Source of the DNA: Euryarchaeota archaeon
GTDB taxonomy: Archaea; Thermoplasmatota; SW-10-69-26; JACQPN01
Direction: 5' to 3'
Assembly: GCA_016207515.1 (NCBI GenBank)
Contig: JACQPN010000008.1
Coordinates: 1-64,000, forward strand
DNA length: 64,000 nucleotides
Positions 1 to 16,198 of the stretch are shown in pieces. Numbering within the stretch: position 1 is the stretch's first letter; each line of letters starts with the position of its first letter. A model generated the notes under the pieces. That model did not search any database. It was given only the letters and a program-made list of their open reading frames with translations, and was not told where the DNA came from. Made by a program: the position numbers and the translations under genes.

Positions 1-1
1 C

Positions 2-82
2 AAGGGAGACAGCTACCGATTGAAGCAGAAGAGGCGGGCCGGAATCATGATTCCCGGCGCGCCGGGTGACAGGAAAACGTAA
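2..82 (+). pseudogene. C-terminal end of an IS21-type IstB helper ATPase (cut by window edge)
   Basis: A 26-residue open frame enters from the left edge and stops at TAA 80-82. It contains SYRLKQKRRAG, which resembles the C-terminal tail of IstB-like transposition helper ATPases of the IS21 family. Only the tail is in the window, so the assignment rests on this short motif and on the IS-like repeats directly downstream. Whether the full gene is intact cannot be seen. Confidence 0.5.
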
Positions 83-140
83 TATGGGACTGGGCACTTT
101 TCAAATGGCGATTCTGGGCACTTTTGGGCCGGCGCTTACA
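83..140. mobile_element. Terminal end of an IS21-family insertion sequence
   Basis: Two exact copies of the 12-mer CTGGGCACTTTT lie at 90-101 and 114-125, spaced 24 bp apart, between the IstB-like tail and the broken recombinase. Multiple short terminal repeats after istB are typical of IS21-family ends. The element probably ends at ...CTTACA at 140, so read from the other strand it begins with TG, as IS21 elements usually do. The other end lies outside the window. Confidence 0.5.
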
Positions 141-636
141 CGCGTCCTGCGCTCTCGTATAGGAGCATGATTAGGGCGCGGTCGCGCGGGTGGTTCGTGG
201 CGTCAGCCAGGCTCTTGATCTCGCCGGGCGATAGGAGGTCCTTGGGAAGTTTGTGTGATTGCAAGGGGTTGCCCGTCTTGATCCATGCGACGAGTGGGGG
301 ATGTGTTTGCGCGTCGGGTGCCAGGAGGTCCTTGTAGAAACTCTTCAGGAATCGTTTGGCGCCTGCCACGGTTTCGGGCGCGCAACGGTTGGACATTTCG
401 CTCAGGTAGGCCTTGATGTCGTTCCTGGTGGCCTTCTTGTAGGGTTTCTTCAGGTGGCGTCCCCAGAGGCGCGCATGCTTGGCTTTGAACGTGCGCGTTA
501 CGATTGATTGACCTGCCAAGTGCCAATCCTGATCCAACCCCAACAACGTCTCCCTCTGGCCCTTCGTGAAATCTGGGGATTCCCATTCGCGCTTGAGCTC
601 CTGCTCTCGACGAGTATTCAACCATTCTGCCTCCAT
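136..636 (-). pseudogene. Tyrosine recombinase/integrase, N-terminal fragment interrupted by an IS
   Basis: The 166-residue product has a SAM-like core-binding domain (about residues 25-110) followed by the beginning of the catalytic domain. It reaches DRALIMLLYESAGR, where the last Arg matches the first catalytic Arg of tyrosine recombinases. Translation then runs into the IS end: the final GTG and TAA codons use IS bases, so the rest of the catalytic domain (HxxR and Tyr) is lost. The fragment lies at the left edge of the accessory island and may be the integrase that once moved it. It resembles archaeal XerA/phage-type integrases, and the fragment itself is presumably inactive. Confidence 0.75.
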
Positions 637-843
637 ACCAATCTCCTCCGACGCTCCAGCCTAGTCTTGGGAGATTTACTCCTTAAACTCGAACCAATAC
701 CCGCCCCCACGACCGCCTCGACTTTAAAAAGACCGCGACGGGGGACAATTCATTGGCCACGACGCAAGGCGCCACAGGGTCGTTTGGCAAGCTAGAATAA
801 ATAGACGGGGGTGGTCCTCCGCATGCCTTCCGACGCGCTACGC

Positions 844-2109
844 TTACCAATTGAGACTGGCCTCGGTAGCGAAGGGTTCTGATCCCCAGGCGGAGTCTTG
901 GCCCGGGAAGCCCCGGGGAGGATCCGGGCCGTCGAATCTCCATCCGAAGGTAGGTGGACCAGTTTCGCCGACCGCGAAACACCATCCTGTCATCGTCCGT
1001 CGCCAGGCGTACCATGCCTGGCCGTCCTCTGATACAGTCGTCGCGACTCCATGGTCTTTTGGTAAACCGTAACGCTCGAAGTCCTCCCCCAGGAGACCAA
1101 GGATCTCGGGTCGGTACCGGCCGCCGCGATTGCGATACCACCCGGCTTGGCAGGTTGCAATCCACTCCAAGGCGTTTCGCGTTTCCTTGAATTCCCGACG
1201 ATCCAGGCGTCTGCCTTCCGTATCGACCGCGGTGGATCCCGCGTACTTTCGGAGATTATTCTCTTCATCGCGCCGTGCTTTTTCCTTCGTCTGTTCGCTT
1301 TCGAGAAAACGGTCCACAATCTCGCGGGCCGCCGAATAAGACTCTGCTTTCGCGAGCTGCGTTGCCCAATACCATGAGAAGGCATTGATTCGCCGGGGCC
1401 GGATGTGTAGTCCTGCCATTACGGCGACCTTTGCTCGGATGCGTGCGGTCTTGTCGTCGGTTCCAGCATCTACCTTGATAAATGCTTCGTCGTAGCCGGC
1501 GTAGAGGTTCATATTGTAGAGTGCTGGTAGCAGCCCGAGTGTGAGCCAGATTGGTAGTGCAGCTTGTCGGAACAAGAATTCGCTGTCGAGTTCCCTCCAA
1601 TGGGAGTATAGCTGGTTGCCGGTGTGAAGTACGAGACCGACGACGATGAGGGTGAGTAGGATGTCAGCAAGCTTTCTTGCCCCTGTAGTTTTTGGATCAC
1701 GTTGGCCCACGATCGAAACGAGGGCCAGGATGAAGATGAGTGGTTGGAGGATCAACTCCTCCAGAAGGCTTAGCACGTAGATGTTCATGATAAGTTCAAG
1801 AACCACCGCGACTCCAATGAGGTGCTTTACTCGGTCGCGGATCTGGCGCGGTTTTCGCGAAAATGTGGGAGAGTCGAGAAAGAGCACCAGAGCCATCGTG
1901 AAAAACCAGATGAATGTGTCCTTGGCGAGATCGCCTTGCCAGAGATGGGACTGTTCACCGACCCAGACCTCAAGTGTCACATAGCCGGCCATGATCAGCA
2001 GCGGAATCAGCATCTTGGGGGCGGCTACCGCTCGCATGATGTCGCCAAGACTTGAGCGTAGAGTCTTGTCGCGAAAAACCAAAACGAGGCCGACGCCCAG
2101 CCAGATCAA
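844..2109 (-). CDS. Multi-pass membrane protein with a soluble C-terminal region, function unknown
   Basis: The 421-residue frame has about five or six hydrophobic segments in the first 230 residues (including VLELIMNIYVLSLLEELIL and LADILLTLIVVGLVLHTG), then a charged soluble region of about 190 residues rich in Arg, Glu and Trp. I do not recognise a catalytic motif. The first usable start codon is TTG at 2109. The same frame stays open upstream to 2169 and encodes DNRETATLIWLG across that TTG, which looks like a conserved N-terminal motif of membrane proteins, so translation may really begin further upstream at a non-standard codon or after a small frame error. It follows the gene at 2215-2769 on the same strand and is probably co-transcribed. 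Confidence 0.6.
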   Translation of the reverse strand: MIWLGVGLVLVFRDKTLRSSLGDIMRAVAAPKMLIPLLIMAGYVTLEVWVGEQSHLWQGDLAKDTFIWFFTMALVLFLDSPTFSRKPRQIRDRVKHLIGVAVVLELIMNIYVLSLLEELILQPLIFILALVSIVGQRDPKTTGARKLADILLTLIVVGLVLHTGNQLYSHWRELDSEFLFRQAALPIWLTLGLLPALYNMNLYAGYDEAFIKVDAGTDDKTARIRAKVAVMAGLHIRPRRINAFSWYWATQLAKAESYSAAREIVDRFLESEQTKEKARRDEENNLRKYAGSTAVDTEGRRLDRREFKETRNALEWIATCQAGWYRNRGGRYRPEILGLLGEDFERYGLPKDHGVATTVSEDGQAWYAWRRTMTGWCFAVGETGPPTFGWRFDGPDPPRGFPGQDSAWGSEPFATEASLNW

Positions 2110-2214
2110 GGTGGCGGTTTCGCGGTTGTCTAGGATTGATTGATCACCTCGTGCATCTCCGCCCGGGTTTCAGTCGTGGCGACCTTGTCAGGGTAAAGCC
2201 TGGCCAAGTTCTGG

Positions 2215-2769
2215 TCACGCACTGCGAATCGCTCGGCTCAATTCTAATGCGAGGTCTTCACCCTCTAGTAGTAGGCTCGCGGGTTGCCCCCTTACCGCCG
2301 CTACCTCCACGGAGATGGCGATGATCTTGTCTCGAGTCGTGTTGTTTGTCAGGACGTTAAGATTTCCAACCGTGACGTCCTGCTCGACCCAAATCCATTG
2401 GGCGCCAGGCACCACGCGACTTGTGTAGCCGTCGGCCGCTTCGTGCAGGGGAAACGTCATCACGGTCACGTTTGGGGGAGGGTCAAGGAAGAACGAAAAC
2501 CTCGTCCATTGGATGGAGACGTCCTGAAGGCCCTTATTGGCGACAGCCGCGCCCAGTTTTGGCGGATCGAGTGATACAATACGGACATCGAGAACTTGAA
2601 GGTCTACGGTGGTCCTTTCTGCTTCCAGATGGGCCAGATCGCGACTGATGTCAGTAAGTTGGGCAGTATAGATTGCCATTGCGGCGGTTGCAATTACCGT
2701 AATGACTGATAGAAGCAGTGGTGCGAAATTGCCTCCAAGCACATCACGTCCGCCCCCGGAACCCTCCAT
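2215..2769 (-). CDS. Single-pass membrane-anchored hypothetical protein
   Basis: The 184-residue product has one N-terminal hydrophobic helix (about residues 14-36) followed by a heptad-like stretch containing LTDISRDLAHLEAERTTVDL, then a beta-rich domain that looks like an Ig-type or other extracytoplasmic sandwich. This layout (helix, short coiled coil, beta domain) is common for anchored proteins in phage and plasmid neighbourhoods. No catalytic residues are recognisable. It lies in the same minus-strand series as the membrane protein downstream at 844-2109, about 105 bp away. Confidence 0.55.
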   Translation of the reverse strand: MEGSGGGRDVLGGNFAPLLLSVITVIATAAMAIYTAQLTDISRDLAHLEAERTTVDLQVLDVRIVSLDPPKLGAAVANKGLQDVSIQWTRFSFFLDPPPNVTVMTFPLHEAADGYTSRVVPGAQWIWVEQDVTVGNLNVLTNNTTRDKIIAISVEVAAVRGQPASLLLEGEDLALELSRAIRSA

Positions 2770-2838
2770 TGCTTCAGCCCCTCCGTGTGAACTTTGACGG
2801 CGGGAAAAGCTCCCGCAACGTTCGCCTGAAGGTTTTCA

Positions 2839-3030
2839 TCATGTTCTTCTGAGCAGGCTCCAGATAACGCCCATGCTGCATGACTTGTGCGGTGGGAAGC
2901 GTTCGCCCACGCTGAGGGGGATCTGCATCTCGTCTGGCGTTGGCTTGCAACCGTAAGGTCCGTTCATGTGTCTGACATAACCGTAAATCCCCGAATAGGG
3001 TGCCTTTTCTCCAGTTTTGTATTCTGTCAT
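2839..3030 (-). CDS. Small YjzC-like protein
   Basis: The 63-residue product begins YKTGEKAPYSGIYGYV and later has GERFPPH and a C-terminal IWSLL. This is the pattern of the small YjzC-like family: Tyr-Lys-x-Gly-Glu-x-Ala-Pro, then Ser-Gly-Ile-Tyr, then a Gly-Glu-x-Phe-Pro-Pro turn. A ribosome binding sequence (AAGGTGA) sits four bases before the ATG at 3030 and supports this start. An overlapping frame at 2774-3037 has no such features and was discarded. The biochemical role of the family is not established. Confidence 0.65.
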   Translation of the reverse strand: MTEYKTGEKAPYSGIYGYVRHMNGPYGCKPTPDEMQIPLSVGERFPPHKSCSMGVIWSLLRRT

Positions 3031-3328
3031 CCGTCACCTTGCCAGGGAGAAATCACCGACTACTTATCCGTTTCATAAAATTCTCGAAATAGAATAAAAG
3101 CCGAGCCGAAGCGTACGCTATCGTGTACGAGGGGACGCGCGGTTCGATACAATTCCTTGCTCTTGGGGTAGCCGAAAGTGGTGGAGAAGCTTGGCATCCA
3201 TATGTTAGCTGTTTGGAAGGCGAGTTCTGGATGGCGTCGTGGGGAAGATGTCCTGTCGTTGGTCCCGAACTTTCTTCGAAACGCGCGTTCTGGTCGCACG
3301 AAAGGTCTGGTTGAACGCGAGGATTCGG
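3031..3328. other. Gene-poor interval
   Basis: About 300 bp lie between the YjzC-like gene and the DUF4145 gene, which are on the same strand. The only long frame (3060-3299, minus) has no recognisable domain, ribosome binding site or family resemblance. The stretch looks comparatively AT-rich. I see no inverted repeat or RNA gene in it. Confidence 0.4.
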
Positions 3329-4000
3329 TTACGTTTTGGTAATACGCCTAGAGTCCGTCCTCCTATGCCGATGTTTCTTGAGTGCGGCCTCAAGGCGCTT
3401 GAGTTTTCTAGGAGCCACGTAGATGTAATCTGCCATAGCGCGGAACAAGTCGCCAAGTATCCAGGCGTCGTGCATTGAGATTGTCTTGTCGTCCGCATGG
3501 GCACCGGAGTTTCGCATGTCTCTGATGGCGTGCGCGATCTCGACGAATCTTGGGGGGAGCGTGCCTCGCTTGGCAAGGTTCTCGATCTGATGGTAGAGCT
3601 TTTCGCCCTCAGCTTCTTGGTCATGCATCATGAATTCCAAGGCGCGTCCAACGAGCACCACGTAGGCCGCCTGCGAAACGGAGGAGACGCGTGTTGCTTG
3701 CGCGTAGGCGTCCCGAATCTTTGCCGGAACATCCTCTGCGAGCTGGTTCGGTCCGGGAAATAATTGATTCATGTCCTCCCAGTTGTCTCCGATAGCGGAG
3801 AAAAGAGATCCCCTTTCGCAGCCCGCGCATGCCACCAGGATTAGCGTAATGGGCAAGTCCACTGGTCGGCTGGCATGGTCATACCATGTGTCGATGAAAG
3901 AGTGTTGCTTCAGAACCTCATAGCGCGTCCTATTGTGACAATGAGGACAATCAAACTTCGAAATGACCTTTACGTTGTGGGCCATGGCTGCTCGTGCCAT
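3329..4000 (-). CDS. DUF4145-like protein with zinc ribbon
   Basis: The 223-residue product opens with a zinc-ribbon pattern: Cys18-x2-Cys21 (FDCPHCHNRT) and Cys58-x2-Cys61 (VACAGC). A helical region follows with AEDVPAKIRDAYAQA, RALEFMM and EIAHAIRDMRNSGAHAD, which is the spacing of conserved Leu-Glu and Arg-x2-Asn-x2-Ala-His elements in DUF4145. That domain occurs alone or attached to restriction enzymes in prokaryotic defence loci; its biochemical role is not settled. A second Met at residue 6 is an alternative start. The Lys/Arg-rich tail may bind nucleic acid. Confidence 0.65.
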   Translation of the reverse strand: MARAAMAHNVKVISKFDCPHCHNRTRYEVLKQHSFIDTWYDHASRPVDLPITLILVACAGCERGSLFSAIGDNWEDMNQLFPGPNQLAEDVPAKIRDAYAQATRVSSVSQAAYVVLVGRALEFMMHDQEAEGEKLYHQIENLAKRGTLPPRFVEIAHAIRDMRNSGAHADDKTISMHDAWILGDLFRAMADYIYVAPRKLKRLEAALKKHRHRRTDSRRITKT

Positions 4001-4060
4001 ATAGGTTCAGCCGGTCATCAAGGCAGCGGAAGTCTCTTCGGGAGCCCAACCTTGGAGATT

Positions 4061-4109
4061 GGGACTTCTTTGTCTTCTCACATAGTCTGCGGTTCCCTGT
4101 CTCGGACCG
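4061..4109. repeat. Left copy of an approximately 49-bp imperfect direct repeat
   Basis: This stretch matches 9251-9300 in the same orientation at about 40 of 49 positions with one gap, including the exact block CTTCTCAC and, further on, TCCCTGTCTC. The right copy covers the last codons and stop of the HerA-type ATPase gene. The left copy lies in the non-coding gap upstream of the DUF4145 gene start, so it may be a relic of a similar gene end. Confidence 0.55.
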
Positions 4110-4278
4110 AAATGTGCGCCGGTGGCGAGATTGGTGATGATCCCGCCGGAGACGTTCATGCCGAGTCCCAAGCGATCCGATCTATTTTGATGTGGTAACG
4201 AGGTGGAACCACTCCTGGCCCCTGCGCTCGGCGAGGCCATTTTCTCTACTTCGTTTGTGTTTAGATCCCGAATCGCGC

Positions 4279-5616
4279 CTAGGAACCGCCGTTGGTACCG
4301 CAAACAAATCGGTCAAAGTCACTGTAATTGTCGGCATTGTATACGGATAACTTCTCCTCGCCTTTCGTGTCGAGGTCGGCGAGTATCGCTTCGGTCTCGT
4401 CTTCTATTACCGGCGTGGGGAGGTTCGTTATGAGATAGCCGCAAGCAACCGGGACGTCCAGTTTCTCGTACCTGCCGATGGCGTCCCAAAGGGCGTTCAA
4501 GTCCTTTTCAAAGTTCGATATCTGTGTCCGGGTGGGCGTGTCGAGTTGGTACATTTTCGCTTCCACGATCGAATAGCCCGGCACGTCTTCGTCGTGGAAG
4601 AGCAGGTCTTTTTCCGAGTCATTTCGTTCGCCTTTCACGTAGCAGCCTGTCGCCCATTCGTGCTCGCTCCGGGCAAGTGTGGCAGCGACTGTAGTACCAA
4701 TGGCGCCGTCCTTGGCGAAGATTGTGTTCGAGAGCGGTGCCGAAACGTGGTAATACGTACCGACGTGCATGGTCTGCCGACAGGCCGGACACGCGATCGT
4801 GGGCGTCTCGTGGCTCCCCACAATCAATTGCGAGTGGGGTTGGTGGACACATCGCGAACACCATGCTACGGTGAGCGCTGGCCTGAAGACCCGCAGCGAT
4901 GTCGCGAGGCTTTCGAATGTGGATGTGAATTCCGCCCGGGGGAGACCTGCCTGCTTCTCCAGGGCCTCTTGCTGCAGGCGTCCCGCCTCCACTATTCCGC
5001 CTTTGGCCTGGCTTACGGAGTCCAGGGCCATGGGAAGGGCCAGGTCGTTGGAATGCTTCAGGGCAGTGTGAATGAATCCGGCGAGCTTGTTCTTTTCAAG
5101 CATCTCCGAGGCTTGTTCGGTGATGAAACGCCTGGCGGCCTTTGCTTGGAATTCCTCCTCGTTCACGGCGTCTATCTTGCCGCGTTGGCTGTCGGCGTGG
5201 GCTTTGAGACGTCTCGTCAGTCCGCTAAAGAGCTCGGTTAGGCTTGGAATAGACCGTTTCAGAACGGTTCTCGTGTTTGCTTCCAGCCTGGCCTGGGCTC
5301 GTTCCATCTCGGTCTTCAGCGGTTGGGCGCTGACGGTCGGGTCGGTTTCGAAATAGATCGCACCAAGTGGCATCCCTTGGATGGGCAGGAAGAGGCCGCG
5401 CGGGACCCATAACAATCGTCTTGCCCTTGAATCAGTGCGGAGGCGGTTGAAGAGCGCGACTGCGTCGGCTTGTTCATGCATCTCGGCAAAGAGGCGCTTC
5501 ATCTCCTGGTCGGAAATGAGGCCAAGTTTGCGACCATCGCGTGTCTTGAGATGAGTCAGTTCGCGCCAGGGATACGAGATGGCGAATTCGTCGTCCTCCG
5601 TACCAGTCGTAACCAT
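4279..5616 (-). CDS. Zinc-ribbon protein with a PD-(D/E)XK-like C-terminal region
   Basis: The 445-residue product has a helical, charged N-terminal half that looks coiled-coil rich (about residues 95-225). A four-cysteine zinc ribbon follows (Cys253, Cys256, Cys276, Cys279). The C-terminal domain contains SEKDLLF (Glu335, Asp337) and YSIVEAKMY (Glu352, Lys354), a plausible PD-(D/E)XK nuclease core of acidic residue, Asp, then Glu-x-Lys. This matches restriction-endonuclease-like folds by pattern only. It is about 125 bp downstream of another nuclease-like gene on the same strand. I would expect a DNA- or RNA-cutting effector, but the family is not one I can name. Confidence 0.6.
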   Translation of the reverse strand: MVTTGTEDDEFAISYPWRELTHLKTRDGRKLGLISDQEMKRLFAEMHEQADAVALFNRLRTDSRARRLLWVPRGLFLPIQGMPLGAIYFETDPTVSAQPLKTEMERAQARLEANTRTVLKRSIPSLTELFSGLTRRLKAHADSQRGKIDAVNEEEFQAKAARRFITEQASEMLEKNKLAGFIHTALKHSNDLALPMALDSVSQAKGGIVEAGRLQQEALEKQAGLPRAEFTSTFESLATSLRVFRPALTVAWCSRCVHQPHSQLIVGSHETPTIACPACRQTMHVGTYYHVSAPLSNTIFAKDGAIGTTVAATLARSEHEWATGCYVKGERNDSEKDLLFHDEDVPGYSIVEAKMYQLDTPTRTQISNFEKDLNALWDAIGRYEKLDVPVACGYLITNLPTPVIEDETEAILADLDTKGEEKLSVYNADNYSDFDRFVCGTNGGS

Positions 5617-5740
5617 GATTCCACAAAGTCCTTCACAGACATGGCCTTTTTGGCGCGGCTAGGGGCATCGCCGCGCTCCTAGAAGCCTTCACATTCCATT
5701 GAGATTGTTCCAAAATCTTGGGTGCGGAGCCAGGCGCCTG

Positions 5741-7648
5741 TCACATGAGAGGGTCGTCACCTTTGCCAATGAGGACGAGTTGCGTCGAACGCCTTCCGTC
5801 TTCGACGATTTCGCCGGCGCGTCGTAGTTCGCGCACAGCAGCTAGGCGGCCGAATCTTGATGGGAGGCGGGGGAGGATGTCCTGTTCCAGTGTCAGGAGA
5901 TCAATCTTTTTCGTACGCAGTTCGGCAAGGAATCTGTCTCGATCGCGGAGTTTCGCCAGCCCGTGACGGGTCGTGACGACGGCCATGCGGATCCGTTCTA
6001 CCCCTCGTGCTGAGAGGGGTTCCCGCATGGCCGTCGCTTTGCGCGCAACCTCTTCGGCGACAGATTTGTCGCCGTGTGCGGTGGGCGAGAGCGTGCATTC
6101 GGCGACTAGCGCCTCCTTTGTCGATTCGTTGATGGCAACGATATCGATCTCCATTGGAGTCCCTAGAACAGTCGCCTCATCATAGGAAACGTGGACCTCG
6201 CCAAACCCAATCTGTTCGAAATACAACTTTGCCGCAAGTTCGAGGAAGACGCCGAGAAGTTCTGAGGCCTGCGATTCGAGTTCTCGAACGCGAACGCGAA
6301 CATAATCCGTGGGGGCCAATTCTTCTCGCATCCGGCCGCGGTTTCCGTATTTCCTCGTCCATTCGGCCTTGAAGAAACCCGTTAGGTCTTCGAGCGTCAC
6401 GTTGCTTGTTGTGACGTTCACGTCGTGGGCATACCGAGTCAAGGCGTGTTCCACTTCCTGGAGTTCGGAGTTGGCGAAGCCACTGGCCGGACTTCCCACC
6501 TTAGTGAATATGAGCCAGCCAGAGTAGTCGCTGATCGAGGTTCGGCGTTCGAGGAGTACGCCGAAGCTGTACCAACCGTCGTCTGCATGATGGAACCGAA
6601 GTATCTCGACTTTGTCCGGGTTGTCGTTCCCACGCTTGACAACGATCTCACCTATGAGGAGCGATACGACGGAGGACGCACCCGAGAAGATCTTGTGATG
6701 TCCAGAGTCAATCACTTCGAATTGATGCCAAATCATGGCCTCCCGAATCTTGTCGTGTAAGGTTAATTGAGGCGAGCCGCTGGGTCTCAGCAGATCCGGA
6801 AACAAGGCTTTGGCCGCCGCTGCTTGCACGAGAAAGACATCAGACAGAATAGGATCCCAACCGACTTCTCGGTCCATCCGGTCGACGCATTCTGAGCGAA
6901 CCCGAGCGTTGAGTGAGTCGAACTTTTCCCAAGAGGTCGCGTCAAGCGTGGCCTTGACGATTGGCGCGTTCGTATCGCCCAGTAGCGTTGACCAAAGGTA
7001 CCCGCATCCGGCCGCATATCCAATAAGGATCGTTTTTTCGGTCTTCGGGTGTTGTCTCAGGCGTGTGGGGGAGTCCGTCATTGCTGCCTCGAACCTGTGG
7101 AGGTCGTGTCCGATGTCCCACACCCAGAACCGTGCCGAATAGTTGGTCAGATCTTCGAGGGTCACGTTTGGGGCCTTCGTCCGGTCGATTGCGCCGCACG
7201 CGTAGAGGACTTTTCGCAACGGCCCGGTGAAAATCTTCTCAATCTCTCCAAGGGCCTCCTCAAGGTCGGCATAGTTCTTGCTTGACGCGATGCGCGTGAA
7301 GATTCGATGCAGATTCTTGTATGCAATAGCTTTTTCACACGTGGGCGGCATCTTTTCGGGGTCGAGGCCCACAAAGAATGCGCGGTGGGTTTTCCAGTCT
7401 TGTTGCAAGCCCAAGAAATCGTCATGCGTAAAACTCGAGAGATAGCGGCCCATCATACGGCGGGCGACGTCGCGGTATCCGACGAAGCATTCGTCAGGCC
7501 TTCGGTTGTGATGGGCCAGAAACTTCTTGAACGTCGAAACGTCCTTGAGAGACGTGACGATGGGGATTATCCAGAAGGTGTCAGGGAACCTACTGGGTGG
7601 GGTAAGACTGGAGCCCTCATCAATCGGCGCAGTCGTTAGCTCCTTCAT
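5741..7648 (-). CDS. Large protein of unknown family with a restriction-nuclease-like C-terminus
   Basis: This is a 635-residue soluble protein. Near the C-terminus it has GTPMEIDIVAIN (Glu500, Asp502) and ALVAECTLSP (Glu517), the layout of a PD-(D/E)XK core except that the expected Lys after the second Glu is a Thr. The octapeptide NVTLEDLT occurs twice, near residues 160 and 415, each followed by an aromatic-rich segment, which suggests two related structural units. A TATA-like CCTTAAAT on the minus strand (about 7669-7677) lies about 25 nt before the ATG, consistent with a leaderless start. The long N-terminal region has no motif I recognise. Confidence 0.6.
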   Translation of the reverse strand: MKELTTAPIDEGSSLTPPSRFPDTFWIIPIVTSLKDVSTFKKFLAHHNRRPDECFVGYRDVARRMMGRYLSSFTHDDFLGLQQDWKTHRAFFVGLDPEKMPPTCEKAIAYKNLHRIFTRIASSKNYADLEEALGEIEKIFTGPLRKVLYACGAIDRTKAPNVTLEDLTNYSARFWVWDIGHDLHRFEAAMTDSPTRLRQHPKTEKTILIGYAAGCGYLWSTLLGDTNAPIVKATLDATSWEKFDSLNARVRSECVDRMDREVGWDPILSDVFLVQAAAAKALFPDLLRPSGSPQLTLHDKIREAMIWHQFEVIDSGHHKIFSGASSVVSLLIGEIVVKRGNDNPDKVEILRFHHADDGWYSFGVLLERRTSISDYSGWLIFTKVGSPASGFANSELQEVEHALTRYAHDVNVTTSNVTLEDLTGFFKAEWTRKYGNRGRMREELAPTDYVRVRVRELESQASELLGVFLELAAKLYFEQIGFGEVHVSYDEATVLGTPMEIDIVAINESTKEALVAECTLSPTAHGDKSVAEEVARKATAMREPLSARGVERIRMAVVTTRHGLAKLRDRDRFLAELRTKKIDLLTLEQDILPRLPSRFGRLAAVRELRRAGEIVEDGRRSTQLVLIGKGDDPLM

Positions 7649-8024
7649 GGGTCCCTACTAACGTCCTAAGGATTTAAGGGCGAGGGTCGCCGTACCTGGA
7701 TTGTCCGAATCCACCTCATGAAGGCGATGCTTCATGTAGAGTCGAGGGGATGTCTACGGATCGGGCATCGCAAAAGACATCGTTGCTGTCAAGGCACCCA
7801 GGTTTCGCGGTGTTACGGGAAGCCGCGTGGACAACGACGCCAAGTTCCAATAACGCCCCTCAAAACCATGATCGTCGATCACGAGCGTCTGGGTTGGTTA
7901 CCGGGATGACCGGATGGGCGGAAACTAGCCTCCTTCCATGTCAGGTGGTTTGCGATTCCGCGGTCCTACAAGGGTTGTATGGGCATGGTAATCTAGGGTG
8001 CAGCAAAGGGCAAGGCGCCGCGTC
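7649..8024. other. Intergenic region with a probable promoter for the 635-residue gene
   Basis: This 376-bp gap separates two minus-strand genes. Apart from the TATA-like CCTTAAAT element near 7669-7677, oriented towards the gene ending at 5741, I see no convincing coding frame, hairpin or repeat. The gap marks a break between the HerA/nuclease-like transcription unit and the genes further left. Confidence 0.4.
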
Positions 8025-9107
8025 TCATCCTAGGAACGTTCTGGACCAAGCTGTCATCGTCGCGGGGGCCAATGGTAATTTGCAGTATTGGTTCGTGAGT
8101 ACCATGATCTCTTCCGAGTATGGGGGCCTGGTTGCGCGTCGGGCGTAGTTTTGGCCTTCGACGTGGAGGAACTTGTTCTCGGGGGAGAAATCTAGGATTT
8201 CGTTTCGGAGGATCACGGATAGGACGTGGGGGTATTCGGCCACCGCTTCGCCGAGTTCTCGAAGGTTTGTGGCCCGTTCTCCCATTTCGTCGTCCCACGG
8301 GAAGAAGTTGAATGGGACGCTTATGACGATTGCTCCGGGCGTGTTCGTCGGGAGCTGTCCTTGTTCGTTTCGAATTTTCGTCTTAACTCGTCTTGTCGTG
8401 TCCGGCGTGGTCGGAGGGCCTGAAAACCCCTGGAGCTTATTGTCCTCCTTCCAATCCTGAAGGAATTGGGAGTCACTGCGTGGCGCGACACCAAGTTGGA
8501 GAACATCGGGAACGTTCACGATTTCGGTTCTACCGGTTTTTGTCGCAGTCGCAACCGCCTTTTGTGTTCGTCGAACCAATTCTTGGAGCAAAGGTTTGGA
8601 TGGCGTTCGAAGCATGCGTCCGGCGAATTCAATTCCGGGTTTTCCCCCAACGAGGCGGATCAATTCGTCGAAGGCGGCATATGCGCGCTTCTCCGCTATG
8701 CTTGCTCCCAATGCCGCGAGTTCTACGTGGATTTGGTCGTTGGTTTCTTGGTTGGTTATGACGAGATCCGGTACTCTTGGTCCTCCGTTGATGACGACCG
8801 GTGGGTCAAATTCGATTTTGAAGCCCTTGGCAACGAGGCGCGCGGCAATCTGGCTTACATCCCATCCCTCCTGCCACTTTTCGGGGGTTCGAAGACGTTT
8901 TGTGACCGTGTGGAACCGCGGCGCATCCTGGATGACGCGGAGGTCTTCTGCGAGTTGGGCGAGAACGATTCGTGTCCACGGTGCGAGGTTCGTGACGAAG
9001 TCACGCAGGGGATGACGGATCTTCCAGATGTCGTTTCCGAAAAGTTTGTCAAAGTCATCAAATGCGCGTCGTGCGGCTTCCCGTTGGTACTTCGTCAAAC
9101 CCGTCAT
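8025..9107 (-). CDS. Putative nuclease-like protein downstream of the HerA-type ATPase
   Basis: From the Met at 9107 the product is 360 residues. The frame is open up to 9296, so a longer start overlapping the ATPase gene is possible, but the extra residues look low in information. The central part has FKIEFDPPVVINGGPRVPDL and, after a turn, IHVELAAL, which fits the first two acidic positions of a PD-(D/E)XK fold (Asp114, Glu129), although the usual Lys is absent. Directly following a HerA-family ATPase, it occupies the place where NurA-type or other nuclease partners are found. The partnership is inferred from position; the family is unknown to me. Confidence 0.55.
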   Translation of the reverse strand: MTGLTKYQREAARRAFDDFDKLFGNDIWKIRHPLRDFVTNLAPWTRIVLAQLAEDLRVIQDAPRFHTVTKRLRTPEKWQEGWDVSQIAARLVAKGFKIEFDPPVVINGGPRVPDLVITNQETNDQIHVELAALGASIAEKRAYAAFDELIRLVGGKPGIEFAGRMLRTPSKPLLQELVRRTQKAVATATKTGRTEIVNVPDVLQLGVAPRSDSQFLQDWKEDNKLQGFSGPPTTPDTTRRVKTKIRNEQGQLPTNTPGAIVISVPFNFFPWDDEMGERATNLRELGEAVAEYPHVLSVILRNEILDFSPENKFLHVEGQNYARRATRPPYSEEIMVLTNQYCKLPLAPATMTAWSRTFLG

Positions 9108-9250
9108 GGTGCTAGCGTGGTCCGCCAATCCCTCCCAGGTGAGTTCATGTGGCAACGGCCTGGTGAGCTGTTCGGTCACTGCTGGCCGAAGGCAATGCGT
9201 AGCATTATGGCTTTCCCCATCACCCCCAATGTTCTCATGGACTTGGCTTT

Positions 9251-9300
9251 GAGACCTCTTTGCCTTCTCACGTAGTGTCGGGTTTCCCTGTCTCAAACCG
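9251..9300. repeat. Right copy of the imperfect direct repeat, at the end of the HerA-type gene
   Basis: This is the partner of 4061-4109, at about 82 percent identity by eye over 49 positions. It includes the stop codon and the last codons of the ATPase gene. Together the two copies bracket the 5.1-kb segment that carries three nuclease-like genes and could have served for recombination or be scars of module exchange. Confidence 0.55.
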
Positions 9301-11652
9301 GTAGGCGAGCCACGCTCCCGCGCGCGTCTCGACGAATATGGCCACCTGTATCGTCGTGGGCTCTCCGGACTGTGCGAAGTGGCTGGCTCCGGCTTGAAGG
9401 ACCCTGTTCATCGTCACGTCGTCGGCGACCACGAACCTCGCCTCGGCCTGGAGTTCGAGGGACTTGCGGAGATTCTCTAGGACTTGTTCGTCGCGGTTGC
9501 TTCCAGTTTCCACTTCTATGGCCTTTTCGCGTCCGTCTTCCAAGTACAGAATGTCAAACCTTGGATCTGGCACCCTCTCGATCCCGAGCAGCCTCGTTAC
9601 TTCATCCACCATCGCCTTGTGGTCTCCTTTGGCGCGGTGTATTCGATCCGGCGCTCGCCCGTTTCGCATCGTGTAGGCTTCCACGCCCCACGGTCGCAGG
9701 TAATAGATGCTTGGCGGCCTTCCTTGGCCCGTATGGGCTTTCGCGTAGGCTACGAGTCCGAGTCCGATGAGTCTCGTAAGGCTCGCTCCTGCGGCGTTCT
9801 GGCTTCGCTTGAGAAGCATCCGGATGGCCCTAGGGTTGATTGCCTTGGATTCGGCTATCGCGTTGAATACGGCCCAATCGCGCCCCGTGAGGCGTGATAG
9901 GCGTTTCTCCAGTTCTGCCCGTTCCGCGTAGTTCAGGTGTCGTTGGGATGGGTTTGGGACCCCTTGGGACAGGGCGTCGTCCCTAACCACTGACCGCGCG
10001 ACCTCGGGGATTTGGGCGAGGTTCAGGCCATCGGTTCGGACGAGGGCTTGCCCGGTCCGAAGGCCTGTCACCAATCCCTCCGCCCCGTCATTTTGCCGGA
10101 GGAGGGTGTTGGCCAGATTCACGTCCTGGGGTCGGACCAGGCGGTGGATGATGAAGGTGTTGACGTTGGCGAGGGCGTGCTTGCTCAACTCGCTCGGCAA
10201 CTGGGTCACGAAGACGAGCCCGACGCCGAGGTAGCGTATCTCTCGACATGTCGTCGTGAGGACGGACGTGGATTCTTGACCCATGGCGAGGAGATGTTGG
10301 GCTTCTTCGAAGACGATCAAGTGCCGGAGCGCGTCGGTCGGTCCCCGTTCGAGTTTGTGTCGAATCTTTTGGAGTAGGACGCTCACGAGTAGGGCAGCGC
10401 CGGCATGGTCCCCAAGGCCGTCGAGTTCGACGATGGTTACGCCTTCGATTAGCGTTTCGAGTGCGATTCCCTCTCGTACGCAGAACGCTTGCCGCGTCGA
10501 CCCAATCATGAGTGACCGGAGAACGCGCAGGGCCGACGAGCTCCACCCAGCCTCGCGACCCATCGTGGGCCGCTTCTCCAATGCTTCAATCAAGTCGCCC
10601 ATGTGTGGGTAGTTGACGCTGCCATCGTAGATGCCGCGTTCCTGATAGAGTTTGTCCAACGTCTCGGCGACGATGTCTTTGCTCCCCACGGCTGGGACGT
10701 ACCTGTTGATGACTTCGCTGAAGATGCTGCTGAACTCCTTCACCCACTGGGCGGGCGCGCCCACGGGTTTCAACAAGTTGTGCGTCAAAAGGTTCCGACC
10801 CGAGAATCCCAGGACTCTTGCCCCACTCGTCGCGTGTAACGAGCGGTATTCTTTCTTCACGTCGAAGACGAGGACGCCCTTGACGTGGGGCTGGGCCTCC
10901 TGAATTAGTCGGAAGACGGTGTTCGTTTTTCCAGCGCCCGTCGTTCCAGCCACAAGCGCGTGCTGATTTAGCGCTTGAAGCGTGACGAATGCTGGTCCAA
11001 GTGGTTTTCCATTGATCGGGCTCAGGATATCGCCGAGGCGGATCGCCGCATCCAGCGGTGGCCCCGACACTTCCCCAATTGAAGACGCGCTGTCGGCGAC
11101 CGGCAGGTCGGGAAATAGTGGAAGCGAGAACCGCGTCAGGATCCGTGGCCGAAGCGCCCGGCCACTGGCCAACCCTTCGAAAGCCTCGACGCCTATCTCT
11201 TCTGTTTCTCGAAAGAACTGCCGGACGACGTGGATTGCGGGTCGCTCGGTGGCCACGGCGAAGCTCGTCACTCGGCCCCGGTCTTGGACGAGCAAGCGCA
11301 TTCTCGCCCGCACTCCCAATTGAAGTAGGGTCATACACGCCTCGGGTAGGCGATCGTTCGCGTAGACGCACGAATACGCGTAGCGAAGTCGGGCCGGAGG
11401 CGGGGAGCCGGGCTTTGAATGCACAACATAGTCGGCCGAGAGGACCTCGCGCGCGCGTTGAAGGATGCGTCCGTTTCGTTCCCGTCCGAATAGTCCTTGG
11501 CGCCACGCGTCGAGGTAGACGCGTGGGACGCCGTCGAGGTCAATGGTGAGTAGCCAGTCGGCGGGTATCCATGGTACCCGGTGGCGTCCATCCCTCGGCG
11601 CGTACGCGAGGAGGTTAATCTGTTCCGCCAAGGTTTCCACCAAACCTCGCAA
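9268..11652 (-). CDS. HerA/FtsK-type ATPase with a nuclease-like C-terminal domain
   Basis: The 794-residue product has an N-terminal beta-rich region (about 1-200, HAS-barrel-like), a P-loop VAGTTGAGKTNT (Walker A, 236-243), FDVKKEYRSL, and Walker B LIVFEEAQHLL (445-452) followed by FVTQLPSEL, all typical of the HerA-FtsK superfamily of hexameric DNA-pumping ATPases. A winged-helix-like segment follows (about 600-670), then a domain with FDILYLEDG and KAIEVETG (about 700-760) that fits a PD-(D/E)XK-type fold. The start is uncertain: TTG 11652, GTG 11640 and TTG 11631 are all in frame, and all overlap the preceding small membrane-protein gene. It is the last core gene of the ubiquitin-like operon. 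I infer DNA translocation and perhaps cleavage controlled by the conjugation system. Confidence 0.8.
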   Translation of the reverse strand: MRGLVETLAEQINLLAYAPRDGRHRVPWIPADWLLTIDLDGVPRVYLDAWRQGLFGRERNGRILQRAREVLSADYVVHSKPGSPPPARLRYAYSCVYANDRLPEACMTLLQLGVRARMRLLVQDRGRVTSFAVATERPAIHVVRQFFRETEEIGVEAFEGLASGRALRPRILTRFSLPLFPDLPVADSASSIGEVSGPPLDAAIRLGDILSPINGKPLGPAFVTLQALNQHALVAGTTGAGKTNTVFRLIQEAQPHVKGVLVFDVKKEYRSLHATSGARVLGFSGRNLLTHNLLKPVGAPAQWVKEFSSIFSEVINRYVPAVGSKDIVAETLDKLYQERGIYDGSVNYPHMGDLIEALEKRPTMGREAGWSSSALRVLRSLMIGSTRQAFCVREGIALETLIEGVTIVELDGLGDHAGAALLVSVLLQKIRHKLERGPTDALRHLIVFEEAQHLLAMGQESTSVLTTTCREIRYLGVGLVFVTQLPSELSKHALANVNTFIIHRLVRPQDVNLANTLLRQNDGAEGLVTGLRTGQALVRTDGLNLAQIPEVARSVVRDDALSQGVPNPSQRHLNYAERAELEKRLSRLTGRDWAVFNAIAESKAINPRAIRMLLKRSQNAAGASLTRLIGLGLVAYAKAHTGQGRPPSIYYLRPWGVEAYTMRNGRAPDRIHRAKGDHKAMVDEVTRLLGIERVPDPRFDILYLEDGREKAIEVETGSNRDEQVLENLRKSLELQAEARFVVADDVTMNRVLQAGASHFAQSGEPTTIQVAIFVETRAGAWLAYRFETGKPDTT

Positions 11653-11803
11653 GGACAGTGATGACGAGGATGATGACTGCGATGACTATGATGAGGCTTC
11701 GCCAGAGGTTCTCAATGTTGAAGGTGAAGGCGAAGATGAAGTAGGTCAAGATGAGGATGAGGAAGATTGTGAGGAGTTGTACGTGCTTCGAGTAGTCAGC
11801 CAC
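11615..11803 (-). CDS. Small two-helix membrane protein (third of three)
   Basis: The 62-residue product from GTG 11803 has two hydrophobic helices (about residues 9-27 and 36-55) joined by FNIENLWRS. This linker and the helix after it match KMEDLWMS plus helix in the preceding gene, so the two are probably paralogs from a tandem duplication. A GGAGG sequence lies seven bases before the GTG, which is why I prefer it to the upstream ATG at 11833. It overlaps its neighbours by 8 nt upstream and up to 38 nt downstream. No function is known. Confidence 0.65.
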   Translation of the reverse strand: MADYSKHVQLLTIFLILILTYFIFAFTFNIENLWRSLIIVIAVIILVITVLARFGGNLGGTD

Positions 11804-12017
11804 GTGGTCGCCTCCACTCCGTCCGCCACGCATACTCCGCGTGATAGGCGAGGACGACGCCTACGAGCAATTTGATTACCACGATTACGACAAGGATGGC
11901 CCCTCCGGTAGACATCCAGAGGTCCTCCATCTTGAGCATGAAGGCGGCGATGAAGAGCACGATCAGTGCCACGAGAACGAAGATGACGATTTTCGTGGGG
12001 TCGTCCACGTCCGTCAA
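11796..12017 (-). CDS. Small two-helix membrane protein (second of three)
   Basis: The 73-residue product starts at TTG 12017, which overlaps the stop of the previous gene as TTGA. That arrangement is shared by other coupled genes here, so I choose it over an ATG far upstream inside the E1 gene. It has an acidic N-terminus (TDVDDPTK), two strongly hydrophobic helices (about 9-28 and 37-56) linked by KMEDLWMS, and a basic C-terminal tail with WRTEWRRPRG. It resembles the 62-residue protein encoded next. The role is unknown, but its fixed place between E1 and ATPase suggests a membrane anchor or target for the system. Confidence 0.65.
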   Translation of the reverse strand: MTDVDDPTKIVIFVLVALIVLFIAAFMLKMEDLWMSTGGAILVVIVVIKLLVGVVLAYHAEYAWRTEWRRPRG

Positions 12018-12253
12018 GGCGTCGCCCCCGTCGGCTGCAGGTGTTCCCTGTTGAGGATCCAGACTAGGAGCGAGCTGAGGAGTAGTACGCCCACGAAGGG
12101 AAGGACCAGCGAGGCGAGGAGAAGGGCAGTGTAGAGCCATGTGTGCCGGGCCCGTACTACCGTAGCTCCAAGAACCAGAAGGACGACAGTAAGGAGGTTG
12201 ATGATCGTCTTGGCGATATACACGACTGCGGCGACTATGGCGCCCCGCTGCAT
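12014..12253 (-). CDS. Small membrane protein (first of three)
   Basis: The 79-residue product begins with ATG 12253, 19 nt inside the end of the E1 gene, and has two or three hydrophobic stretches: IVAAVVYIAKTIINLLTVV, VLLVLGATVV and LYTALLLASLVLPFVGVLLL. The hydrophilic tail is ILNREHLQPTGATP. It does not share the EDLW-type linker of the two following small proteins. Overlap with both neighbours shows co-translation within the ubiquitin-like operon. No homologous family is recognised. Confidence 0.65.
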   Translation of the reverse strand: MQRGAIVAAVVYIAKTIINLLTVVLLVLGATVVRARHTWLYTALLLASLVLPFVGVLLLSSLLVWILNREHLQPTGATP

Positions 12254-12939
12254 ATTTCACACTCGGGATTCTTCTCAAGGTTGTTGGTGTAGAACTGGCC
12301 CCTCTGGAGGTCAATGAAGACATGCCCTTTGACGCCGCTTCCATGGGCGACCTTGACGATTTGGATGGCCTGTACGTTGGCGACGACGGCCGCCGTCACG
12401 TAGGTGGAGGGAATCGGGTCTTGCGAGCAAGAGGCCTTTTTTGGCGCTACGGGAAGGATGGGGTGGCACGCGAGGCATGCGCCGTTTCCCGGTCGCACCG
12501 TCGTTACCGTCCCCTGGAACCGGTTGATGCCGGCGTCCACGAGGATGTTTCCCGTCGTTACGCCGAGGAAGTTGGCATAGTGGCGGGTGGCTATGTTGTC
12601 GACACCGCTGCAGAGTATGGTTCCTTTCAGGTCGGCCGTGACGTTCTCAAGCCTGCCGATAAAGGTCTTGATGTTGATTGACGGGTCGATTTTCCGGAGG
12701 CGTTCGGCGAGCGCAATTACCTTGGGTTTTCCGATGTCGGAATGGTCGTAGAGTTGGTTTTCAAGGTTGTGTTCTTCGAGCGTGTCGGGGTCGATGAGGG
12801 TGAGCTCACCAACCCCGAGACGCGCGAGCGCCGCGGCAAGTTGGGAACCGAGGGCGCCGCATCCGATTATCGCCACTCGAAGGGCGCGGACCGCGTACTG
12901 GTTCCATCCTTCGATTAGCGTTTGTCGTTCGTGGCGCAT
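12235..12939 (-). CDS. E1-like (ThiF/MoeB/UBA superfamily) adenylating enzyme
   Basis: The 234-residue single-domain E1 starts at the ATG that shares one base with the JAB stop (TAATG). It opens with RHERQ, the usual Arg-rich entry of the family, then the nucleotide loop IIGCGALGSQ (residues 24-33), Asp50 at the end of the second strand, and SGVDNIATR (Asp114, Arg119). Two CxxC pairs (Cys155/158 and Cys227/230) should bind zinc. Cys171 in KASCSQDPIPS sits in the crossover loop and is the best candidate for the thioester-forming cysteine. ThiF-type E1s adenylate the C-terminal glycine of a ubiquitin-like protein. Here the partner would be the upstream ubiquitin-like/E2 product, after or before processing at its Gly-Gly. 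Confidence 0.88.
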   Translation of the reverse strand: MRHERQTLIEGWNQYAVRALRVAIIGCGALGSQLAAALARLGVGELTLIDPDTLEEHNLENQLYDHSDIGKPKVIALAERLRKIDPSINIKTFIGRLENVTADLKGTILCSGVDNIATRHYANFLGVTTGNILVDAGINRFQGTVTTVRPGNGACLACHPILPVAPKKASCSQDPIPSTYVTAAVVANVQAIQIVKVAHGSGVKGHVFIDLQRGQFYTNNLEKNPECEICSGAP

Positions 12940-13397
12940 TACTTTCTCGCTCCTATCCGGTGCGGCAGGATCATGCCCTTTCCGTGTTCCACGCGGAAGC
13001 ATCCGAGTCCGACGCCGTCCTTCGTGAACGGGTCGACCACCACGGCCACAAAATCCGCGAAGAGCTGCTGTCCTTGGTGCGTGTGGCGGACATCCAGTCC
13101 GCTGAGGAAGACGCCGAAGGTCGGGTGTCCGTGCCACCATCCGACGGTTGACTGCTTCTTGCGGCAGAGTCGCCTCGCTCTCTCGTAGTCGTTCGCGTCC
13201 AGTTGGATCGTCGTAGCTTCACCGTTTCTGCGAGATCGGGTCGCGTGTTCCACGTAGAGTTTTGAGCCGGTGGCTCTTCCGATTAGCAGTCCTCCCGTTT
13301 CTCTGCCCGTCGCGACGGCTTGCCAGTAGGTGAGTGTGGCCAGTACGCGAGGGTGGATGACGACCGTGGAGGTCTGGGGCGCTTTCGCCCGCATCAT
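12939..13397 (-). CDS. JAB/JAMM (MPN) metallo-isopeptidase
   Basis: The 152-residue product carries a full JAMM signature: Glu33 in GRETGGLLIG, then WWHGHPTFGVFLSGLD giving His89-x-His91-x7-Ser99-x2-Asp102. All zinc-binding and catalytic positions are present, so it should be an active metalloprotease of the Rpn11/Prok-JAB family, which removes ubiquitin-like proteins from lysines or trims their C-termini. Start codons at 13397 and 13394 (ATGATG) overlap the TGA of the upstream gene, and its TAA overlaps the E1 ATG. A likely substrate is the Gly79-Gly80 junction of the ubiquitin-like/E2 fusion, as well as conjugates. This last point is inference. Confidence 0.9.
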   Translation of the reverse strand: MMRAKAPQTSTVVIHPRVLATLTYWQAVATGRETGGLLIGRATGSKLYVEHATRSRRNGEATTIQLDANDYERARRLCRKKQSTVGWWHGHPTFGVFLSGLDVRHTHQGQQLFADFVAVVVDPFTKDGVGLGCFRVEHGKGMILPHRIGARK

Positions 13398-14137
13398 GCC
13401 CCCTCTCCGTAGAGGAGTTTGCGGGCGAGAGTGAGCGGGTCGAGTGTGGGCATCTCGACGACTTCGGAGGCGAGCGGTTCGACGGCGCGGTTCCGGCGGA
13501 TGTAACCCTCGACGTACTCGTTGGGAACGTACCCGGACTTGTAGTCGGGGAACTCCAGGAGCCATTCGATTTCGTCCCAGACGCTCGGGATGTTGTTCAT
13601 GGGGGTCCAGGCGGTGAGGAGATGGTTGAGGCAGACGTAACCGCTCTCCGAGATGTTGGGGTGGCGCGGTTTTGGCTTGGTGAAGAAACGGGGGATGGGG
13701 GGTGTTGCGGGGTAGCTCGGCGGGAGTTCGATCATCAAGTCGAACGTTTGTTGGCGCCACTTGCCCTTGCCGCGCATCGTGCCGCGCCAGAGCAGCGGTG
13801 TTATGGGGCGGAGGGGGATTCCGGCCTGTTGGATGCGCCTCGCTTCATTGGCGATGCGATTCCTTGTCATGCTGGTGAGAAAAAAATTGGGGGACGCGCC
13901 CCCAATCGGGTTGGCGGGCATGCACTTGAGCACTTCGCCCGCTGAGATGCCGAGTTCCTGCACGGTCTTGTTGAGGGGGATTTCCTTCCCATGGCGCACG
14001 AGGCTGATCGCGTTGGGGTCGATTGCTTGCCCTTGACCGACCATCTCGCGCACCTTCATCATCGTGTAGTGCGGTTCCACCTCAAGCTTCATCGGCGTTG
14101 CCGTGCCGACCATGCTACTTATTCCTATTTCCATCAT
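13394..14137 (-). CDS. Ubiquitin-like domain fused to an E2-like conjugating enzyme
   Basis: Residues 16-75 read as a ubiquitin-type beta-grasp: hydrophobic strand, then MKVREMVGQGQ, LVRHGKEIPLNKTVQELGIS and VLKCMP, equivalent to the GK-L...T...I-G pattern of ubiquitin. It ends PIGG (Gly79-Gly80) and then runs into an E2/UBC domain: ELPPSYPATPPIPRF, HPNISESGYVCLNHLL with the catalytic Cys169, and AWTP. About 50 further residues form a C-terminal extension. So modifier and conjugating enzyme are made as one chain. The ATG at 14137 has AGGTGA six bases upstream and a TATA-like box near 14198. It heads the operon whose next genes are JAB and E1. Cleavage after Gly80 would give a free modifier and a separate E2. 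Confidence 0.9.
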   Translation of the reverse strand: MMEIGISSMVGTATPMKLEVEPHYTMMKVREMVGQGQAIDPNAISLVRHGKEIPLNKTVQELGISAGEVLKCMPANPIGGASPNFFLTSMTRNRIANEARRIQQAGIPLRPITPLLWRGTMRGKGKWRQQTFDLMIELPPSYPATPPIPRFFTKPKPRHPNISESGYVCLNHLLTAWTPMNNIPSVWDEIEWLLEFPDYKSGYVPNEYVEGYIRRNRAVEPLASEVVEMPTLDPLTLARKLLYGEGA

Positions 14138-14192
14138 GTCTGTTCACCTGTTGGCCCGCGAGGGCCACGCGATGATTGGCCGCTCAACCAAC

Positions 14193-14203
14193 ATATTATT
14201 TTT
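14193..14203 (-). promoter_or_regulatory. Probable TATA-box promoter of the ubiquitin-like operon
   Basis: The minus strand reads AAAAATAATAT here, an A/T block in otherwise GC-rich DNA about 60 nt before the ATG at 14137. A transcript starting some 25 nt downstream would have a leader of about 30 nt carrying the AGGTGA ribosome binding site, unlike the leaderless genes elsewhere in the window. Confidence 0.5.
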
Positions 14204-14310
14204 CGGGCCCCCCTAGATTTCGAAGAAGGAAATGGCGCAAACATCGAGTGTCGTTGGCAGGCCGATTACTGTTGGAAATTCGGGCCGATTCTTTCAGGAA
14301 AAGAGGAGAC

Positions 14311-14330
14311 GGCCCCCGTTTCCGGGGGCC
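14311..14330. repeat. Perfect GC-rich hairpin, 8-bp stem and 4-nt loop
   Basis: GGCCCCCG, loop TTTC, CGGGGGCC. The stem is uninterrupted and very stable. No U-rich tract follows on either side within a few bases, so it is not a classical terminator. It may be a recombination or protein site at the island edge. Confidence 0.6.
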
Positions 14331-14347
14331 TCGGGTTGGGACTGAAA

Positions 14348-14380
14348 AGGGGTGAAGCCACCTTTTGTCGATTCACCCCT
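14348..14380. repeat. Inverted repeat, 9-bp arms
   Basis: AGGGGTGAA at 14348-14356 and TTCACCCCT at 14372-14380 are exact reverse complements separated by 15 bases. It lies 18 bp from the previous hairpin. It could be a transcription terminator, an operator-like site or the scar of a mobile element end. Confidence 0.6.
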
Positions 14381-14481
14381 CTCGTTTACTTCATGGACGC
14401 TGGTTCGAGTCCACGCGGGGCCGTCACGAGCGGACGCGAATGACGGCAAGCGGACGGAGCGTGAGCGGAGTCCGCGCAGCC

Positions 14482-14504
14482 CGCGAGCGCGTGGAGCGCT
14501 CGCG
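14482..14504. repeat. Inverted repeat, 9-bp arms and 5-nt spacer
   Basis: CGCGAGCGC and GCGCTCGCG flank GTGGA. It is the third perfect palindrome within 200 bp of the same non-coding region, which is unusual compared with other intergenic gaps in the window. Confidence 0.55.
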
Positions 14505-14627
14505 AGCTCAAACGACGGCGACGTGACGAAACGTCTGCGCAGTCATCGAAGCCCGAGGCTTGGCCCAAGCAGACCATCATCCTCTGGCGAAAAGCCGCGT
14601 GTACGTACGTATACATACCATGAGGTC

Positions 14628-15485
14628 CTAGGGCCCGGCCAACACCGTCTGCCAATAGTAGACGATGTACGTCCCGACGACGATCAACACGACACCCGTC
14701 ACCTTACTCAAGAACGGTTGGAGAGCGCGGATCCGTTCCCTCGTGATGCCCTTGCCGAACGAGAGGGAGACGGTTGTCGCGAGCATGAGAGCGCCCATCC
14801 CCAAGCCGTAGGAGACGAACGTCGCGACGCCTGTGAGCGCTCCGCCGCTTGCAATCGCGGAACCTAGGGGTACGAGGAGGAGCGGGAGGTTGCACCCCAA
14901 CGCGACGACACCATAACCGAGGCCGAATACGTAGAAGCTCTTCGGGGTCTTCCCCCTAGGCGCGCCGACCGAGGCCATGAATGACGGGAACCTCCCGGCG
15001 AGGGAGACCACCCCAGCGAGGATCAGGGTCACGCCGACCGCTTGGACTGCGAGTCCGATGTTCGTGAGCGTGAGAAGCCCGGTCGTGAGGAAGACGAGTG
15101 GGATGCCGATGAGCGTGAAGATCGTCAATATCCCTAGCACGTTGGCACCCGCGAACGCGATGGAACGGCGAAGTCCCTGCGGGTCGAGTCCGCGTAATCC
15201 GAGCGCGAGTGTCACCGCGCCGACGCCGAGCAACGCCACTTGGAGGACACCAAGTTCAGACTCGCCGGTGAGGACCTGGAACGAGGAGGCGATGCCAAGG
15301 GCGAAAAGGATGGCGCCCGCCACGAATGCGGCGACCCCGAGGTTCGAGGCGGCCGGCTTCGATTGCCCCGTGTCGGCGGAGAGGTAGTAAGAGACGTACG
15401 CCGGGAGCATCGCGATGCAACAAGGCGAGAAGAAGCTCAGGGCACCGGCGACGAAGGCCCAGAAGAAGAACAGTTCGTCAGCCAA
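14628..15485 (-). CDS. ccdA: CcdA-type thiol-disulfide membrane transporter
   Basis: The 285-residue membrane protein has about seven hydrophobic segments. The first contains FFSPCCIAMLPAYVSYYL, the usual Ser-Pro-Cys and Pro-x-Tyr signature of CcdA/DsbD, and the second conserved Cys is in ALGCNLPLLL. These cysteines pass reducing equivalents from cytoplasmic thioredoxin across the membrane. The gene overlaps the end of the upstream thioredoxin-like lipoprotein by 8 nt, so the two form an electron-transfer pair used in extracytoplasmic thiol reduction or cytochrome c maturation. Confidence 0.88.
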   Translation of the reverse strand: MADELFFFWAFVAGALSFFSPCCIAMLPAYVSYYLSADTGQSKPAASNLGVAAFVAGAILFALGIASSFQVLTGESELGVLQVALLGVGAVTLALGLRGLDPQGLRRSIAFAGANVLGILTIFTLIGIPLVFLTTGLLTLTNIGLAVQAVGVTLILAGVVSLAGRFPSFMASVGAPRGKTPKSFYVFGLGYGVVALGCNLPLLLVPLGSAIASGGALTGVATFVSYGLGMGALMLATTVSLSFGKGITRERIRALQPFLSKVTGVVLIVVGTYIVYYWQTVLAGP

Positions 15486-16026: not shown

Positions 16027-16198
16027 GCTCCTCCGTAGTCGCTTGTCCCATGTGGGCTTTTTGGTCGTACGACACCGGCCCACGCGGCGCGGCGGGTCAT
16101 CCAAGGGTCCACTTTGGTGTCCGCAACGCTTGCGCGGCCCTACATCTCCAGCTGAAGCGAGGGAAGTGGTTTTTTACGTTGAATCCCCTGCCACACGC

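Follow-up and report, generated by a model that had tools for sequence, protein, structure and literature searches.

Insertion sequences of the IS21 family duplicate between 4 and 8 bp at the target site. The parts of PMC10122671 that bear on such elements describe terminal repeats composed of two repeats, named R1 and R2. Like members of the IS21 family such as IS5376, the element analysed here has an IstA/IstB architecture with genes that overlap, two repeats per end, TG...CA ends and a short target duplication. It differs in that its host looks archaeal, and in that the probable target duplication at two sites is 4 bp, as against the 5 bp that PMC10122671 gives as observed experimentally.

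The gene in which it lies is most like the XerA-like archaeal tyrosine recombinases with a C-terminal zinc ribbon, of which the same genome encodes a full-length paralogue. The two have the N-terminal SAM-like domain and the start of the catalytic domain in common, but everything past the first catalytic Arg is missing here. Both the truncated protein and the paralogue fall below the NCBIfam XerA cut-off, and are thus relatives of XerA rather than XerA itself. The arrangement described below is, in our judgement, very probably the result of insertion of an IS21-family element into a tyrosine recombinase gene at the edge of an island of lower G+C. For an IS21 element from an archaeon-like lineage, the precise ends are given below together with two probable target duplications.

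The right end of an IS21 element at the start of the contig

The stretch of DNA analysed, referred to as the window, is 64,000 nucleotides long and corresponds to bases 1–64000 of contig C8 (65,433 bp), so that it begins at base 1 of the contig. The genome assembly consists of 25 contigs and 2.67 Mb, with a completeness estimate of 98.37%. It is termed archaeon-like here since genes on C9 and C5 have an archaeal look by eye and most relatives of the integrase (47 of 62) carry archaeal record titles. The leftmost features of the window are:

1–140, plus strand: right terminus of an element of the IS21 family, matching the final 140 bp of the C9 element, as well as the C15 and C20 contig ends, at 100% identity
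2–82, plus strand: 3′ end of istB, the last 26 codons and stop, with the translation KGDSYRLKQKRRAGIMIPGAPGDRKT, equal to the C-terminus of C9 IstB
90–101, plus strand: inner 12-bp terminal repeat CTGGGCACTTTT, transposase-site-like; in the complete element the corresponding 12-mers start at base 39, counted from either end, with the register off by one
114–125, plus strand: outer 12-bp terminal repeat CTGGGCACTTTT, transposase-site-like; in the complete element the corresponding 12-mers start at base 15, counted from either end, with the register off by one
141–144, plus strand: CGCG, where flank comparison would place one copy of a 4-bp target duplication; the other copy is absent from the assembly

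The IS boundary in the window is therefore between 140 and 141. Because the same 140 bp recur with 100% identity on C9, C15 and C20, the match of positions 1–140 is beyond chance.

A complete copy of the element was found at C9:135097–137270. It is 2,174 bp long, carries istA and istB, and has TG...CA ends. The two ends start TGAAAACGCCG and TGTAAGCGCCG, and 21 of their first 27 bases agree. Each end has AAAA(A/G)TGC(C/T)CA repeats at positions 15 and 39; the pair of 12-bp repeats in the window is the right-end pair of this element. IstA (412 aa) and IstB (264 aa) are encoded in frames that overlap by 4 bases (L012:5419–5422). In profile searches IstA scored 302.9 bits with NF033546 (cut-off 160) and IstB 282.8 bits with NF038214 (cut-off 200). 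IstB also matched PF01695 (E 3.7e-83), and IstA matched PF00665, PF22483 and HTH models, indicating that an HTH, a DDE (rve) core and a Mu-type C-terminal domain are present. Two solved sequences matched at E ≤0.001, namely 8q4d (E 8.4e-80) and 8b4h, both of which are IS5376 IstA. No part of istA lies inside the window, and the evidence for IstA comes from the C9 copy.

The initial annotation, made from the window's letters, had placed an IS21-type element in the integrase, with two 12-bp repeats and an IstB-like tail. All three elements of this description are borne out: the first 140 bases are the right end of the C9 element, whose two proteins pass the IS21 family models, both repeats are present, and the tail is that of IstB. 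The copy is a standard IS21 element in a known kind of integrase, and as such is routine genome biology.

The recombinase gene is interrupted at its first catalytic arginine

The gene adjoining the IS is:

139–636, minus strand: N-terminal portion of a tyrosine recombinase whose gene is broken off past codon 165 (Arg), identified by identity to the paralogue and by PF13495

The frame runs on the minus strand from 636 to 139, encodes 166 aa ending ...YESAGRV, and has its stop at 138–136. Only 141–636 is the recombinase's own DNA; the final V and the stop are built with IS bases, the stop codon lying within the first five of them. The 165 recombinase codons are free of stops and frameshifts. The SAM-like N-terminal domain PF13495 was matched with 28.3 bits (cut-off 27). 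Compared with the full-length paralogue (C2:317431–318669, 413 aa), the truncated protein is 52% identical (85/165) in an ungapped alignment that stops at Arg165. This residue is invariant in an alignment of five sequences, the truncated protein and four full-length relatives, and from the motif we take it to be the first catalytic Arg of the tyrosine recombinase fold. In the paralogue PF00589 is matched at residues 135–299, and the alignment shows HLFRHSR, the Tyr and a C-terminal zinc ribbon. HxxR and Tyr occur in the full-length relatives, but the frame in the window lacks both and is thus a broken gene of the tyrosine recombinase family and not a working member.

The frame had been said to break exactly after the first catalytic Arg, and the truncation had been attributed to the IS. 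Both statements agree with the alignment, in which the cut falls at the IS boundary and Arg165 lines up with the full-length relatives, and with the formation of the last codon and stop from IS bases. The insertion accounts for the truncated integrase in the window and presumably also for the point at which C8 starts.

Relatives of the integrase were found at 62 loci in the genome contig collection, 47 of them titled as archaea and 15 as bacteria (counted by hand). With the N-terminal half as query, matches were obtained in four of 40 related genomes. None of 178 stretches of viral contigs that fitted a pattern was confirmed as an integrase relative.

IS copies and target duplications in the genome

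Four contig ends, on C8, C9, C15 and C20, carry the right 140 bp of the element with 100% identity. Its left 140 bp occur at two junctions, on C9 and C5, and are the same in both. When the two intact left flanks were compared with three right flanks, the C9 and C20 flanks were found to share CTCC, and the C5 and C15 flanks AGAG, as 4-bp duplications; the pairing is inferred from these 4-bp matches between contigs. The other four left/right pairs had no exact match of 2–12 bp at the junction. Simulation of such flanks gave one pair or more at a frequency of 0.036, and two disjoint pairs at 0.0002. For the C8 flank, CGCG, no left partner was found among the genome's 25 contigs. The flanks thus indicate that there are at least three IS copies in the genome and that one left junction is absent from the assembly.

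Two candidates for the left side of the C8 copy were rejected. C5 pairs with C15 via AGAG, and its flank carries no integrase remainder. A diverged left end on C23 has a flank with an exact 2–12 bp match to none of the three right flanks. This end (L020, near 1501–1626) is an isolated one from a related IS21 element, 79% identical over about 125 bp, and is probably a relic.

C5 also carries a diverged tyrosine-recombinase-like frame (L051:926–2479; PF00589 E 0.006, below the cut-off). At its 3′ end it overlaps a tRNA-Pro gene encoded on the opposite strand, near another IS21 copy, and the region looks like another integrated element. IstA relatives were detectable in three of the 40 related genomes searched.

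Search for the C-terminal half of the integrase

No C-terminal half was recovered from the 25 contigs, either with PF00589 or with the full paralogue as query, the latter at E values up to 10. The full query matched itself, the N-terminal half on C8 (E 2.6e-48) and, weakly, C19 and C12. As the N-terminal half was recovered at E 2.6e-48, a C-terminal half with similar identity would have been expected to appear as well. PF00589 gave five matches over the genome at E ≤0.01, in frames of 369–444 aa, none of which is the missing half.

Both weak matches fall beyond the catalytic domain, in the vicinity of the zinc ribbon. On C19 the match (E 0.026, paralogue residues 299–398) is to a low-complexity translation with a stop, and the C12 match (E 0.23) covers paralogue residues 320–354. 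When paralogue residues 166–413 were searched against eight loci, C12 was matched in the zinc-ribbon part only (E 0.003 and 1.8) and C19 not at all; the paralogue aside, the other matches were short, with E 0.19 or worse. We have treated the C19 and C12 matches as chance or as an unrelated zinc ribbon.

Gene order, followed as a guide to the left neighbour of C8, gave no candidate. One neighbour to the left of gatB, namely the gene at 16174–17559, and some to its right are kept in two of three relatives examined. Nothing further left matched in these two, one of the contigs ending soon after, and the third relative has gatB and one unrelated weak match only. A phage-type integrase was also noted on C13 (L056, 6,287 bp); its neighbours look bacterial by eye, giving the impression of possible bin contamination.

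Proposed course of the insertion and alternatives to it

In the course of events that we favour, IstA, the DDE transposase, and IstB, the AAA+ helper, would have moved the element into the integrase gene, splitting it directly after the codon for the first catalytic Arg. The C-terminal half, which in full-length relatives holds HxxR, the Tyr nucleophile and the zinc ribbon, would thereby have been cut off. This remainder presumably is, or formerly was, on the far side of the IS. Since the N-terminal half is separated from the catalytic Tyr, the gene should yield no active integrase, and from general knowledge of tyrosine recombinases the truncated product should be catalytically dead. The insertion appears to be recent, as identical IS ends and an undamaged 165-codon frame would fit. 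C8 presumably begins at the IS because the assembler failed to cross a multi-copy element.

The IS/integrase junction is known from assembled contigs alone, and a misjoining of the IS to an intact integrase gene has to be weighed. C8 does start inside a multi-copy repeat, and the common ends of 140–141 bp suggest overlaps of an assembler graph with k = 141. Such an overlap would, however, imply k-mers that read across the junction, and the cut falls exactly at the IS terminus as set independently by C9, C15 and C20. An intact gene would moreover have left another contig with the integrase remainder, and none was found among the 25. An assembly artefact is therefore very improbable. We give just as little credence to a truncated integrase that still works, for example as an N-terminal DNA-binding fragment regulating the island. 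Its frame is indeed open and undamaged, but a recent insertion, with which the identical IS ends agree, also leaves an open frame, and all four aligned relatives are full length.

It is harder to set aside a deletion. Once in place, the IS could have removed neighbouring DNA, or could have undergone recombination with a second IS copy, leaving the C-terminal half truly gone from the genome. The failure to find that half in a genome estimated to be 98.37% complete, and the lack of a left flank that pairs with CGCG, would both be expected, and from the C8 side an IS-mediated deletion would look identical to a simple insertion. Even so, a deletion still needs a left IS junction for the C8 copy, and no unpaired intact one was found in the bin, both intact left junctions being paired with other right flanks. 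A missing or unbinned contig, on the other hand, explains the absence of the left junction and of the C-terminal half at once. We therefore regard deletion as rather unlikely.

The island and its cargo

The IS lies at the left edge of the following feature:

141–14137, minus strand: putative island, its right boundary approximate, recognised by lower G+C and gene content

The G+C of the island is 53–62% per kilobase, compared with 60–65% at 14–30 kb, and the recognised genes from 141 to about 14.1 kb are all on the minus strand. They include genes without family matches, a DUF4145 gene, a HerA-like ATPase, and genes for E1-like ThiF, JAB and Ubl-E2 fusion proteins. Six proteins encoded at 1–9.3 kb had no Pfam match above cut-off apart from DUF4145. 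To the right of the island are gatB and a gene for a ResA-like protein that scores below the NCBIfam cut-off, both chromosomal in character. A search for att sites between 141–1200 and 13501–15500, over lengths of 10–20 bp, gave no exact repeat of more than 10 bp, the left boundary lying beyond the contig end, and there is no tRNA gene in the window.

In view of the IS insertion, the island should not be taken for an intact mobile element. That the island has lost its self-mobility and is frozen in place is a reasonable inference; the C2 paralogue or another recombinase could act on it in trans.

The island proteins were compared by tblastn with 137 loci, and the results given here cover the output outside the nine loci of the window's own contig and outside weak integrase matches. 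HerA relatives (E ≤1e-3) were present in five of the 62 integrase loci (L095, L103, L115, L116 and L118), all bacterial by title, with the HerA-like genes within about 8 kb of the integrase relatives. E1 relatives were present in two (L115 and L116). HerA and E1 may possibly be recurrent cargo of the integrase family. None of the archaeal loci among the 62 had a HerA or E1 relative at E ≤1e-3, an observation that argues against any general association in archaea. A further-reaching reading, which we hold to be unlikely, is that the insertion has made an island with a Ubl-E2/JAB/E1 cassette and a HerA-type ATPase permanently immobile and has thereby domesticated it; the integrase family would then serve as a recurrent HerA/E1 vehicle across bacteria and archaea.

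The ubiquitin-like conjugation cassette occupies 12235–14137 on the minus strand and consists of the Ubl-E2 fusion (PF00179), JAB (PF01398) and E1-like ThiF (PF00899). The ubiquitin part of the fusion, PF00240, is below the Pfam cut-off, and the cassette adjoins small membrane-like frames and the HerA-like ATPase. The E1-like ThiF protein also matches PADLOC E1-E2 models, and the DUF4145 protein at 3329–4000 matches the PADLOC model PD-T7-4 with 34.5 bits.
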